Shown one piece after another: positions 19,766-32,882 of a stretch of 64,000 bases of DNA (positions are counted from its first letter, which is position 1; every line of letters begins with the position of its first letter). The translations under genes were made by a program, and so were the position numbers. The DNA comes from Runella sp. (GTDB lineage Bacteria > Bacteroidota > Bacteroidia > Cytophagales > Spirosomataceae), in contig JALQYJ010000030.1 of the NCBI GenBank assembly GCA_023254175.1, positions 1 to 64,000 of the forward strand. Direction: 5' to 3'. The notes beneath the pieces are model-generated. The model was not told the DNA's origin, searched no databases, and saw nothing but the letters and a program-made list of their open reading frames with translations.

Positions 19766-22700
19766 TTACTTCCTACCTAAAATCAACGCCTCGCTGTCAT
19801 TTACGCCCACAATTATCCGTTTGGTTTTGCCTGAATTAATCGTTTGCAAACTTCTAATATTGCCTCTAAGATTCAATCCTGATTGGGCTTGGGGCACATA
19901 GTTAAAATTGTTTTTCCCATCCCCTAAAAGCAATACACCGTGATTGGCGAAGTAGCGTCCAAATTTGATGCGTGTCCAAGTATTTCCACCCGCCAAGAGC
20001 AAATCTTTTTTACCATCATTGTCAAAATCATCGGCTATGATCCCCGTTACAGGTGCATATTGGGCTTCCATCGGTAATGTATGGGCTTTAAATCCTTTGG
20101 TTCCTTGATTTTCGAGATAAAGGGTTTGCATGATTTCCGATTTCAAAACTTTAGCATTTTCCAATTCTTTTGAGCTAAAAACATCAGTTATCGTAGCCGT
20201 TGAATAGGATTTATAATCGGTAAATTTTTTCTTGATAAATGGCATTGGATCGGCCAAGTCATCGCGAGAGGCCATCGGGTACGATACCCCACCAATGTAA
20301 TAACTCAGGACAGGTACAATTGAACCGTTATCCATAAAATCTTTGTAATGGACGGTCATCGGTTCTTTCTCATTGACTTTAAATTGAGTGTTTAACCCAC
20401 AATTCCCAATTGTTAAATCCAAGTCGCCATCGCCATCCATATCCGTAGCATTGAGTTTACTCCACCAACCAGTACTTGCGAAATGGATGTATTCCTCCGA
20501 TTTATCGGTTAATTTTCCTTTTGAATTGATAAAAATTTTAATGGGCATCCATTCGCCTACTACAATCAAGTCTAGCTGTTTGTCATTGTTTACATCCATC
20601 CAAGCAGCATCGGTTACCATTCCGATTTGACTTAATTCAGCACACGTTTTAGATGTATTTTCAGAGAATCGTGGCACCGAACCGTTCCCTTTTCCATCAT
20701 TGATTAAAATATATGAATTGGGAGTAACAGGATACCTTCGCGGTACGATTCGTCCACCAACAAAAAGGTCTAAATCACCATCAGAGTCAATATCAGCCGC
20801 TTTTACGCAGCCTTTGCTTGATACTAATTTTGGAAGAGCACTTTCGCTTATGCTATAGTTCCCTTTTCCATCATTTAGGTACAATCTATCTTGTAGCAAT
20901 GGGTCATTTGCTTCAAATTCATACCCCCCCGCCGCTACATACAGGTCTTTATCGCCGTCATTATCTGCATCGAAAAACGTCCCTGCGACATCTTCACTCC
21001 CCGCATTTTGTGCAAAAACTGACGTATTTATTTTACTAAATGTATTGTTTTTATTTTGGATAAATAGTTGCGAAACTTCGCCTTTTGCTCCCCCCATAAA
21101 AAAATCATCCAAGCCATCATTATTGATATCTGCTACCTCAATGGATGGCCCTTGTCGACTGAAATAATTTGGCAAAAGCGACTGTACGGTAAAGTCATTA
21201 AATCCATTTTCTTTATGAATCACATTTGTCAGATTACTTTGGGTAAAAATCGGAGTTGATTTTTGATTCTGATACACCCATTTGTTTTGGGCATCCGCTA
21301 TTTTTACTTCTAATACTTGATTTGTTTTAACGGAAGTGAGCTTTTGATAGGAATCATTTGTCCAAATGACTATCAACGAATCAATGGTGGTATTTTCACC
21401 CACGCCAAAATTTAAAACGGGGTCATTAGATGATTGAAAGCCCCTAACAGGTGATTGTTCTTGGTACATAAGTTGCCCTTTGACGTACAATTTTACTTTT
21501 GCACCAATGCCAAAACGGTTGGTAGCACCACCATCCAATTTGACAGATAAATAATTGTTTTTCGTTAACTTTTCAGCATTATTTTTATAAATACTCGCCA
21601 ACGCGTTGGTGTTATTAACGATTAAATCGAGGTCTCCGTCGTTGTCTAAATCCGCATAAGCAGCACCCGCAGAAACGCCTTTTGTAGTGAAACCCCATTC
21701 GTTAGACATTTTTTGAAAGGTACCATCTCCTTTGTTTTTGAAAGCATAATTTTGGGTTTCATTTTTAGGCATTTTTCGTAAATATTCAGGAATGGGATCC
21801 ACATTTGCGGAGTCCTTGGCCATTGATTTAATAACTCTATCCACCGAATATTTCAAAAAATCCATTTCAGTGTAGTCTTTTACGTAGCCATTGGTGATAA
21901 AGAGGTCTTTGAATCCATCTTTATCAAAATCGCTGAATAGGCCCGCCCAACTCCAGTCGGTATTTGAAACGCCAGCCAATTGCCCCACTTCGCTAAATGT
22001 GCCATTACCATTGTTGCGTTGAAGCATATTTCGGCTAAATTGGTAATAAAACCCTTGCTTAAATAGAAACTGAAACTTATCGAAATTCTCAGGTCCACTG
22101 TGCATTTTGATGGTTTTATTGTCCTCAGGCATCATATCAAGCGTCAGTAAATCAACATTTCCATCGTTGTCATAATCGGCGGCATCCGTTCCCATCGAAT
22201 AGAGGGAAATGTTATCCATTTTTTGAACAAGTTTTTCCGTAAATCGTGGAGATGAACCTGAAACCTTACCATTATTTTCAAAGAAATAATCGGGCTCATT
22301 GAAGTCATTAGATACCGAAATATCGGGCCAACCGTCATTATTAAAATCTGACACGGCAACCCCCAAACCAAAAGTTAAAACATTTGAGAATATGCCTTCT
22401 TGGTCTGAGACATTGGTAAAGCCCCCCTTATTCCCCCCAATAGGGGGAATTAAATCGTTACGATAAAGCTTACTGGCATAATCAGGATTCCGTTCGTTTC
22501 TTAATGCGGGGTTATCTTGTACACCTGCTGTATATTTTTGTATTGAGTGATTGATAATAAAACAGTCTAAATCACCATCTTTGTCATAATCTAAAAACGA
22601 AGCCATCGTCGAATAACCGTTGTCGGCTAAACCATATTCTTCGGCTTTTTCGGTAAAACTTAAATCGCCATTATTGATAAAAAGAAGATTTTTTCGACGG

Positions 22701-23107
22701 TCTGGATTAATATCGGCACTTCTACAAATATAAATATCTAATTTCCCATCATTGTTTACATCGCTCATCGTTGCTCCAGTGCACCAACCCTGCATTTGGT
22801 CGACGCCTGCTTTTTTGGTAATATCTTCAAATTGAAAGTTTCCTTTATTCAAAAAAAGCCTATTTCTAACCATATTTCCTGTAAAAAGTATATCCTGTAG
22901 CCCGTCATTATTAATATCACCAACGGCTACGCCTCCACCATTGTAGAAATAGATATAGTTGGCAACATTTAAAGGGCCATCTTCAAACAGCGTATTTCTG
23001 AAATTAATACCCGTTTCAGAATCGGATAATTCAGTAAAAAGGGCATTATTATCTTTACACGAATTCAAAAAAAACAGTGTAAAAAGGGCGAATAATAGTT
23101 TTCGCAT
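19766..23107 (-). CDS. VCBS/FG-GAP repeat lipoprotein with ASPIC/UnbV domain
   Basis: Start refined to MRKLLFALFTLFFLNSC (lipobox); many DxNxDGxxD repeats (VGDINNDGLQDILFTG, MSDVNNDGKLDIYI); UnbV segment GIGAKVKLYVKGQLMYQEQSPVRGFQSSNDPVLNFGVG. Confidence 0.9.
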   Translation of the reverse strand: MRKLLFALFTLFFLNSCKDNNALFTELSDSETGINFRNTLFEDGPLNVANYIYFYNGGGVAVGDINNDGLQDILFTGNMVRNRLFLNKGNFQFEDITKKAGVDQMQGWCTGATMSDVNNDGKLDIYICRSADINPDRRKNLLFINNGDLSFTEKAEEYGLADNGYSTMASFLDYDKDGDLDCFIINHSIQKYTAGVQDNPALRNERNPDYASKLYRNDLIPPIGGNKGGFTNVSDQEGIFSNVLTFGLGVAVSDFNNDGWPDISVSNDFNEPDYFFENNGKVSGSSPRFTEKLVQKMDNISLYSMGTDAADYDNDGNVDLLTLDMMPEDNKTIKMHSGPENFDKFQFLFKQGFYYQFSRNMLQRNNGNGTFSEVGQLAGVSNTDWSWAGLFSDFDKDGFKDLFITNGYVKDYTEMDFLKYSVDRVIKSMAKDSANVDPIPEYLRKMPKNETQNYAFKNKGDGTFQKMSNEWGFTTKGVSAGAAYADLDNDGDLDLIVNNTNALASIYKNNAEKLTKNNYLSVKLDGGATNRFGIGAKVKLYVKGQLMYQEQSPVRGFQSSNDPVLNFGVGENTTIDSLIVIWTNDSYQKLTSVKTNQVLEVKIADAQNKWVYQNQKSTPIFTQSNLTNVIHKENGFNDFTVQSLLPNYFSRQGPSIEVADINNDGLDDFFMGGAKGEVSQLFIQNKNNTFSKINTSVFAQNAGSEDVAGTFFDADNDGDKDLYVAAGGYEFEANDPLLQDRLYLNDGKGNYSISESALPKLVSSKGCVKAADIDSDGDLDLFVGGRIVPRRYPVTPNSYILINDGKGNGSVPRFSENTSKTCAELSQIGMVTDAAWMDVNNDKQLDLIVVGEWMPIKIFINSKGKLTDKSEEYIHFASTGWWSKLNATDMDGDGDLDLTIGNCGLNTQFKVNEKEPMTVHYKDFMDNGSIVPVLSYYIGGVSYPMASRDDLADPMPFIKKKFTDYKSYSTATITDVFSSKELENAKVLKSEIMQTLYLENQGTKGFKAHTLPMEAQYAPVTGIIADDFDNDGKKDLLLAGGNTWTRIKFGRYFANHGVLLLGDGKNNFNYVPQAQSGLNLRGNIRSLQTINSGKTKRIIVGVNDSEALILGRK

Positions 23108-23186
23108 GATTTTGGGTATGAGTGATAAAAAGATTCCACCGAATATTGTTATTTGGTGGAATCTACAAAAAAACTTAATACAAAAT

Positions 23187-24779
23187 CTAATTCTTATCCC
23201 ACCAAAGAGGTGTTGTGACTTTATCGCCACCAGAACCTAACAACGGCACTGCTGCATCAACCGCCGCTTTGTTGTTTTGTTTTTCTGACAACAAAAATGG
23301 TATTCTGCGTATCCATTGTTTAGTTGGGTCTGTAATATCTGGGTTTTCAGAATTTGCCACTGGATATAAAATAAAGTTACGTCCACGACGATAATCTGCC
23401 CAAGCCTCTGTTCCGTCAGGGAAGATAGCCAACCATTTCTGAATCGCAATTTGCTCTCTTTGTGTAGCTATGTCACTTGCCCATTTAATTGGAGCTTTTG
23501 ATACTGCTGGCGATTTCAAGAAATCTTCTGGGGCAACTGGCACATCAGGGCTATTGATATAAGCCGTGATTGCTGCGGCATCGGTTATTCCCCATTGTCT
23601 CATTGATTGTCTAATCCCCTCTTCGTACAAACTCTTAGCTGTACCGTTCATGTTCCAGCCCAACAGTGCTCCTTCGGCACGCAAGAAGAATGCCTCTGCA
23701 ACCGACATGATGTTTTGCGGTGTTTCTAAGTAATTGGCATTTCCACCAAAATCAGGTGATGACCATCTCGCACCTACTTTGGCGTTGGCCGTTGGTGAAT
23801 TCATCGCTTCTGTTAATTGAGTAGAAGTAAGACCATTACGTAAACCATCGTACTTACCAGTTCCATTGGGGTTGGCTTTTGTAGCATTGTTTGGCAACCA
23901 ATAAACCGACATACGAGGGTCTTTGTAGCCTTTCATCACCGACTCCATCGAAGCACTCATACGGAATTCGTTCCAATCTGACATGATTGAAAGGCCGTTA
24001 TTGTCGGCACCTTTTGTACTTTTCTGAAGCAAAGCATCATCACCTGGACTTGACTGAAATACGCCTGCTGCCACGGCTGCTTCCGCTTCGGTTTTTGCTC
24101 TAGCAGGGTCTACTTTTGAAATACGCAATGCTAAACGCAATCTTAGCGTATTGGCAAATCTAAACCATTTACCAGCGTCACCACCGTAAATCAAGTCAAA
24201 GCTTCCATAAGGTTTTTCGTTTTGCTTGTTTTTCAACACATCAGAAGCAGCAGCCAATTTTTTGAAGAAATCATCATAGATTTTATCTTGTGCATCATAC
24301 GCTACCGAACTACCCGCTTTTCCTGCATTGAAATAAGGAATAGGTCCCCAGTAATCCGTCACTCTATGAAAACCAAGCACCCAAACCACGTCAGCAATGG
24401 CCGCTTCGGCAGAACCCGCAGGAGCCGCCGCCTTGATTGACTGCAACTGAGGCACCATTTCGGTATAAATCGGATTGAAAGCTGCTCCTACCCAGTCCAT
24501 ACGAATATTCAAACGGTCAGAGGGGAAATAGGTAGCCGTACAAGCAAAATATTGGGCATATTGGTCAGCAAAAAGGTTTTGCGCTACCTGATAATTCCAA
24601 ATATTAGGCACTGCTGACGCCTCTGCTTTAGCAAAAAGGAATGGTAATTCGGCCGAACCTACGGTAGCAACTGAGTTTCTGTCTGTATTTATTTCGTCAA
24701 ATTTGTCTGTACAAGAACCTAATAGGAGTACAAAAAAACTGAGAACAGACAAGGATTTTAAAAAGCTATCTATTTTCAT
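23187..24779 (-). CDS. SusD/RagB family nutrient-binding outer membrane lipoprotein
   Basis: Lipobox LLLGSCTDKFDEINTDRN; SusD-like C-terminus (EQIAIQKWLAIFPDGTEAWADYRRG). Confidence 0.93.
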   Translation of the reverse strand: MKIDSFLKSLSVLSFFVLLLGSCTDKFDEINTDRNSVATVGSAELPFLFAKAEASAVPNIWNYQVAQNLFADQYAQYFACTATYFPSDRLNIRMDWVGAAFNPIYTEMVPQLQSIKAAAPAGSAEAAIADVVWVLGFHRVTDYWGPIPYFNAGKAGSSVAYDAQDKIYDDFFKKLAAASDVLKNKQNEKPYGSFDLIYGGDAGKWFRFANTLRLRLALRISKVDPARAKTEAEAAVAAGVFQSSPGDDALLQKSTKGADNNGLSIMSDWNEFRMSASMESVMKGYKDPRMSVYWLPNNATKANPNGTGKYDGLRNGLTSTQLTEAMNSPTANAKVGARWSSPDFGGNANYLETPQNIMSVAEAFFLRAEGALLGWNMNGTAKSLYEEGIRQSMRQWGITDAAAITAYINSPDVPVAPEDFLKSPAVSKAPIKWASDIATQREQIAIQKWLAIFPDGTEAWADYRRGRNFILYPVANSENPDITDPTKQWIRRIPFLLSEKQNNKAAVDAAVPLLGSGGDKVTTPLWWDKN

Positions 24780-31637: not shown

Positions 31638-31639
31638 AA

Positions 31640-31745
31640 TTTAAAGCCCCCCAACCCCCGATGGGGGAGTGTTTGTAAATTGTGTTTTCGTCGGGGACGA
31701 AAAAGATTATTTATTCCCCCATTGGGGATTAGGGGGCTATTTAAA
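31640..31745. repeat. composite C/G-rich palindromic repeat between two co-directional genes
   Basis: Left arm TTTAAAGCCCCCCAACCCCCGATGGGGGA inverted relative to right arm TTCCCCCATTGGGGATTAGGGGGCTATTTAAA; inner hairpin TTTTCGTC-GGG-GACGAAAA. Confidence 0.8.
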
Positions 31746-32882
31746 TTTCACCCACTTACTATTACTCTTACCAGAAGCAATGACAGTTTCCACAAACTGC
31801 ATTCCGCGGATACCATCCTCGATGGTAGGGAAGTCCAAATCAAATTCATTAGGCTCTTCGCCATTCATACGCTTGCGTACCGTACGAGCAAAATTACGGT
31901 AAATGTTGGCAAACGCTTCCAAGTACCCCTCGGGGTGTCCAAATGGAATGCGCGAATGGGCATTGGCTGAATCTGACAATTTACCAACTGATGGCTGATA
32001 AATTTGGTAGCCTTCCGTGCTTTTGTGATGCAAGTATTGCGGAGTTTCTTGATGCCAATGCAAACTACCAAACTCCCCATAAATACGAATATTAAGGCCG
32101 TTCCAATCGCCATTACAGATTTGGCTACAATGTAAAATCCCACGTGCACCATTATCAAAATGCAACAAAACGTTGGCATCGTCGTCCAATACGCGTCCTT
32201 CCACCACACGACTCACGTCGGCACATAATTCCGTAATTTTTAAACCAGTGATATATTCGGCAAGGTTTTCGGCATGAGTTCCAATGTCGCCAACTGCACC
32301 CGCAATTCCTGAGCGTTTAGGATCTGTACGCCATTCTGCTTGTTTTGAACCATCCTTTTCAGCTGCAAACGACAACCACCCTTGTGGGTATTCGACAACT
32401 ACTTTACGGATAGTTCCAATTTTACCTTCTTTGATAAGTTGGCGGGCTTCTTTTACCATTGGGTATCCTGTATAATTGTGTGTCAGGGCAAAAGTCAGGC
32501 CTGTTTTATCTACTAGTTCTTTTAGCTTTTTTGCCTCACTCAACGAAAAGGTCACTGGCTTATCACAAATCACGTGGAAGCCATTTTCAAGGGCCATTTT
32601 AGCGGGCGCAAAGTGCATATGGTTAGGTGTTACAATCGAAACCACATCTATACGGTCTTTACGACGTTTTTCTTTTTGAATCATTTCCTTGAAATCACCG
32701 TAACAACGCGATGGGTCAAGCATGAGGTCTTCGCCCGAAGCTTTCGATTTTTCAGGAGTTGAGCTGAACGCACCACACACTAAATCAATTTCTCCGTCGA
32801 TTGCCGCTGCAATTCGGTGAACTCCTCCAATGAAAGCCCCACGGCCTCCACCTACCATACCCATTCTAATTTTTCGAGCCAT
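31737..32882 (-). CDS. Gfo/Idh/MocA family oxidoreductase
   Basis: RKIRMGMVGGGRGAFIGGVHR, VSIVTPNHMHFAPAKMALENGFHVICDKPVTFSLSEAKKL, GAVGDIGTHAENLAEYITGL. Confidence 0.93.
   Translation of the reverse strand: MARKIRMGMVGGGRGAFIGGVHRIAAAIDGEIDLVCGAFSSTPEKSKASGEDLMLDPSRCYGDFKEMIQKEKRRKDRIDVVSIVTPNHMHFAPAKMALENGFHVICDKPVTFSLSEAKKLKELVDKTGLTFALTHNYTGYPMVKEARQLIKEGKIGTIRKVVVEYPQGWLSFAAEKDGSKQAEWRTDPKRSGIAGAVGDIGTHAENLAEYITGLKITELCADVSRVVEGRVLDDDANVLLHFDNGARGILHCSQICNGDWNGLNIRIYGEFGSLHWHQETPQYLHHKSTEGYQIYQPSVGKLSDSANAHSRIPFGHPEGYLEAFANIYRNFARTVRKRMNGEEPNEFDLDFPTIEDGIRGMQFVETVIASGKSNSKWVKFK

Follow-up and report, generated by a model that had tools for sequence, protein, structure and literature searches.

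The 64,000-nt stretch of Runella sp. DNA analysed here (the window) carries an intact coding sequence for an FG-GAP/VCBS repeat protein with a UnbV_ASPIC domain at positions 19766-23230 on the minus strand. The encoded protein is 1154 aa long, with a start that probably lies downstream, near 23107, and with Pfam matches to FG-GAP_3 (1.1e-69) and UnbV_ASPIC (1.2e-20). Its gene adjoins a SusD-like gene and a gene for a CarboxypepD_reg/Plug protein of the TonB-receptor type. Inside the coding sequence, at 22418-22454 on the plus strand, lies a palindromic element of the form C6-TTATT-C6-AATA-G5. As a first-pass annotation of the window had proposed, it is in frame and encodes LIPPIGGNKGG; it runs antisense to the gene. 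The core of the element (22422-22447, plus strand) consists of two C-runs, a loop and a G-run, which is predicted to pair with the second C-run when the element folds. As single-stranded DNA, the 37-mer folds better than all of 200 dinucleotide shuffles (z = -3.1). An Rfam scan of the window returned a tRNA as its sole match.

The resemblance to an intergenic repeat elsewhere in the window, also pointed out in that annotation, extends to a pair of copies of this core in inverted orientation. The first (AG-C6-AA-C5-GAT-G5) occupies 31645-31667 on the plus strand and the second (AG-C5-TAAT-C4-AAT-G5) occupies 31716-31738 on the minus strand. Together they form a head-to-head, REPIN-like dimer (31638-31748) that folds as a single long hairpin with a folding energy of -30.7 kcal/mol (z = -6.34). 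By direct reading, the end of the second copy (TAG-CCCCC) supplies the TAG stop codon (31737-31739, minus strand) of a 381-aa coding sequence at 31737-32882 on the same strand. The copy at 22418 is more diverged, with the spacer TTATT and the loop AATA in place of the consensus spacer TAA and loop AAT.

A palindromic repeat family dispersed within and between genes

The family has the consensus AG-C5-(TAA)-C5-AAT-G5-A and a unit of about 25 nt, and units are often paired in inverted dimers that span about 55-75 nt. We counted copies across the source genome (4.85 Mb in 199 contigs), whose closest named relatives are Runella defluvii, R. limosa and a Runella MAG, using the loose pattern CCCC-N1-7-CCCC-N2-6-GGGG and the same pattern reversed as a control. 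The motif is repeated genome-wide, as expected of a mobile repeat in the first-pass annotation: 89 raw matches (56+33) at about 46 distinct places compare with 0+2 in the control, and diverged copies are missed by such counts because they come from pattern searches. Genome G010 contains 134 matches versus none in the control. Raw matches are uneven across Runella genomes, with 166+71, 125+59 and 113+59 in three of them and about 5 in others. When the class was sampled evenly, a stricter motif turned up in 20 of 149 genomes; its loop sequences are specific to each genome, and the controls are near zero. The distribution of the family is patchy across both genus and class.

In the source genome, about half the copies lie in frame within long open reading frames. 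Ten of these host frames were scanned against Pfam, and the proteins identified include NAD-dependent DNA ligase LigA, which carries an inverted pair, a valyl-type tRNA synthetase, glycine dehydrogenase GcvP, an AcrB-family transporter, inositol monophosphatase and a glucose/sorbosone dehydrogenase (GSDH). Hosts that we take to be MetH, IcmF, HisD and LeuRS are named from a reading of the sequence. At one locus of the source genome (C70:16761-19385), six copies occur in 2.7 kb, both within and between genes.

The intragenic share is higher still in G010, where we examined the first 70 distinct places on a 7.43-Mb contig and counted as a gene any open reading frame of at least 100 aa, irrespective of annotation. 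Fifty of these copies are located in genes and 20 outside, a lower intragenic fraction (71%) than the 92% coding content of the sequence sampled (p = 2.7e-7). Two reading frames predominate among the 50: sense frame 0, which yields peptides of the S-P-x-x-P-N-G-G type (17 copies), and antisense frame 1, which yields the P-P-x-G-x-x-G-L type (18 copies). Their combined use (35/50) exceeds that expected if every stop-free frame were used equally (chi-square p = 1.2e-4), a value inflated by dimers, which render the counts non-independent. The source genome alone has no significant frame preference (p = 0.46). The bias in G010 may reflect a filter for Pro/Gly-rich turns. A hub gene recurring beside the G010 copies was sought at 37 loci, and the only recurring neighbours were three paralogues of one 755-aa protein and one pair of related open reading frames.

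Several G010 proteins carry multiple copies. A VCBS/UnbV paralogue (L318:1094-4516, at about 286-290 kb of contig C1) contains four, one of them at an LYRN-x-F blade hairpin like that of the window insert and another two forming an inverted pair. A 280-aa SDR-type protein (L323:4663-5505) likewise contains four, and the adjoining HisD-like gene ends in another copy. This neighbourhood looks the same as that of the six-copy locus in the source genome.

Could the intragenic palindromes be chance or codon-driven Pro/Gly motifs and not a mobile repeat? A few matches would suit this explanation, namely a weak one in a MoxR-like gene (L067), marginal ones in transketolase, L042 and L062, and one set of tandem coding repeats (L039). 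We nevertheless regard it as extremely improbable, given the near-empty controls in both genomes, the occurrence of identical sequence between genes, the use of different reading frames, and the clear presence and absence among orthologs at several loci, which already contradicts it. The tandem repeats at L039:1-463 encode FGLAP-PMGVGAVDFS, match the palindrome pattern at the DNA level by chance and are probably unrelated to the family.

Filled and empty sites in orthologous genes

Comparison with orthologs identifies the window copy as an insertion. The source genome reads KLYRND-LIPPIGGNKGG-FTNV at this site, while R. defluvii (G001) and genomes G003, G007 and G010 read KLYRND-NNH-FTNV, and two more distant Bacteroidota orthologs (69-71% identity) read NGH and NNH. 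The residues are thus missing from orthologs without the repeat, in agreement with the initial proposal. The suggestion that the insertion is private to the source lineage did not hold: R. limosa reads KLYRND-LIPPVGGTKGG-FTNV, the same insert with two substitutions. Because this copy is present in the R. limosa isolate genome, an assembly error is argued against. In the VCBS gene tree the source genome, R. limosa and the pair of G010 and R. defluvii form an unresolved trifurcation, with which a single insertion in a common ancestor of the source genome and R. limosa would be consistent. The net gain at the filled site is 24 nt (8 residues). DNA-level comparison with empty orthologs reveals no visible target-site duplication, and about 10 nt of the empty site also differ, indicating that it was replaced and not simply interrupted. 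Such a duplication, together with the terminal inverted repeats of a parent IS, is a mark of MITEs.

The expectation that the insert would occupy a tolerated surface loop agrees with the predicted structure. In an AlphaFold model of the VCBS protein (35 sequences, mean pLDDT 87.8, pTM 0.87), the insert is placed in a hairpin loop (residues 220-231) between strands 215-219 and 232-234, and residues 223-228 have pLDDT values below 50.

Sites that are empty in relatives are found at several other loci in conserved genes. Relative to both R. defluvii and G003, which lack the element at these positions, the source genome carries inserts of 11 aa in ValRS and 6 aa in an alpha/beta hydrolase, as well as an insert at the C-terminus of the HisD-like protein. 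The 5-aa insert in GSDH is absent from R. defluvii, G003 and G010, and an acyl-CoA dehydrogenase-like protein is 6 aa longer than its single compared ortholog. LigA is about 15 residues longer at the element site than E. coli LigA (2owo). Similarly, compared with R. defluvii, G010 has gained 14 aa in a LeuRS-like protein (from a dimer of the element), 6 aa in a VCBS paralogue, 9 aa in the repeated 755-aa protein and 8 aa in an SDR protein. Not all sites are clean insertions. In the IcmF-like, AcrB and SDR loops, relatives hold other sequence of similar length that is sometimes palindromic or repetitive, and the MoxR-like protein (L067), for which relatives have similar residues, may contain no insertion.

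In R. defluvii, loops at L243, L347, L351 and L352 contain other palindromic or repetitive sequences (e.g. CCTCTCCCTCAGAGGGGAGAGG, ACTCATCACTCATC) and correspond to loops with the C5/G5 element in other Runella. For a second G-rich family, seen in loops of R. defluvii (GGGGAGRGRTTTAGRGAGGGG), the matches numbered only 4 and 3, and the control is useless because the pattern is nearly symmetric; we make no claim for it.

An alternative is that the inserts are selected for a function, for example as hairpins with an effect on translation or mRNA stability, or as adaptive diversification of protein loops. The independent targeting of the same type of blade hairpin (LYRN[D]-x-F) in the G010 VCBS paralogue, the other repeat-like sequence in the IcmF-like, AcrB and SDR loops of other Runella, and the dominance of two Pro/Gly-rich frames in G010 are all in line with a selected function. 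Against this, the copies are spread across unrelated proteins and occur in genes less often than expected by chance, which fits tolerance rather than benefit, and we consider selection for function unlikely.

Origin of the element and its relation to known repeats

Rickettsia is the best-known source of protein-coding palindromes, and scattered examples come from other genomes rich in REPs. The Rickettsia palindromic elements (RPEs) are summarized in PMC1950309 and PMC10969869 (after Ogata et al., 2000, 2002) as having a length of about 150 bp and encoding a conserved peptide; we compared against a range of about 100-150 bp. The likeness to RPEs drawn in the first-pass annotation is apt only as an analogy: the Runella palindromes are dispersed, also between genes, and are inserted in frame in unrelated protein genes, where they are absent from orthologs and tolerated by the proteins. 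Several features differ. The Runella core measures only about 25 nt and its dimers 55-75 nt, it is read in several frames and on both strands to give several peptides, its host belongs to the unrelated Bacteroidota, and its architecture is closer to that of REP and REPIN sequences.

Among REPs, the GTAG- and CGTC-tagged families are mostly intergenic, with some intragenic copies (Di Nocera et al., 2013, PMC3733652). The Runella element shares with them a 20-40 bp hairpin in many copies, head-to-head dimers, intragenic copies in hosts such as DNA ligase and the tRNA synthetases, and the provision of TAG stops by the end of the element. It differs from them in its high intragenic share, exemplified by G010, and in lacking the GTAG/CGTC tag: ahead of the first C-run, conservation is limited to AG, and the outer positions are mixed. 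With REPIN and RAYT-associated REPs (PMC3116915, PMC6006769) it has in common inverted doublets that fold into a single long hairpin and a patchy distribution among related genomes. In contrast to those systems, no examined RAYT is flanked by the Runella element. Since it departs in tag from the GTAG/CGTC REPs, in length from RPEs and, at the loci examined, in RAYT linkage from REPINs, we class the element as one that works like RPEs and intragenic REPs and not as a member of either. Publications already describe RPEs in Rickettsia and intragenic REPs across many phyla (PMC3733652, PMC1950309, PMC10969869); in the open-access literature we found no earlier report of the Runella element or of such insertions in Runella.

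A REP/REPIN family mobilized by a RAYT (Y1 HUH) transposase, as in Pseudomonas and E. coli, is a possible but doubtful origin. Besides the dimers that fold as long hairpins, genuine RAYTs scoring above the NCBIfam cut-off (NF047646) are present in Runella, and one tnpAREP subclass (2.6), dominated by Bacteroidetes, is reported to have atypical flanking structures (PMC6006769). Among 39 relatives, copy number correlates weakly with the number of Y1 genes (Spearman 0.38, p = 0.02); this correlation vanishes within the genus (0.12, p = 0.70). The source genome has no RAYT above the cut-off. We inspected the palindromes around readable Y1_Tnp and NF047646 matches in copy-rich genomes and their relatives. 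None of the examined Y1/RAYT loci is flanked by the element, the nearest copies lying 1-2 kb away (L202 and L337/L399), and several examined RAYTs have different palindromes alongside.

The best overall explanation, to which we assign a probability of about 0.88, is that a REP-like, non-autonomous palindromic repeat left the window 37-mer as an old copy that is now fixed. This copy would have inserted in frame, in an ancestor shared with R. limosa, into a beta-propeller protein at a hairpin loop on the surface. Replication slippage may account for the spread of the family, as may a nuclease or transposase that works in trans on the single-stranded hairpin. Copies would be purged where they disrupt a gene or introduce a stop codon. 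Where a copy instead adds a Pro/Gly/Asn-rich turn (SPLTPNGG, PPLGVRGL) to a flexible loop, it would persist because it is nearly neutral.

More tentatively, the family could be an orphan palindromic element of some Bacteroidota, with no link to RAYTs and residing largely inside genes, that settles time and again in the same flexible core-protein loops across species. If so, short mobile hairpins would be a main source of loop variation in the genus Runella. A free-living genus with heavy insertion in core enzymes and with empty sites in relatives offers a natural experiment on insertion-tolerant protein loops, one that also bears on how repeats move without a linked transposase and on repeats as drivers of loop evolution. 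It also calls for caution: where Runella proteins show residues of this kind in an alignment or a predicted structure, mobile DNA may have left them as scars.

A different REP family accompanies the RAYT genes of three Runella genomes (L324, L330 and L340), each of which is flanked on both sides by palindromes of the form CTTTGGTTT-TGAG-AAACCAAAG.
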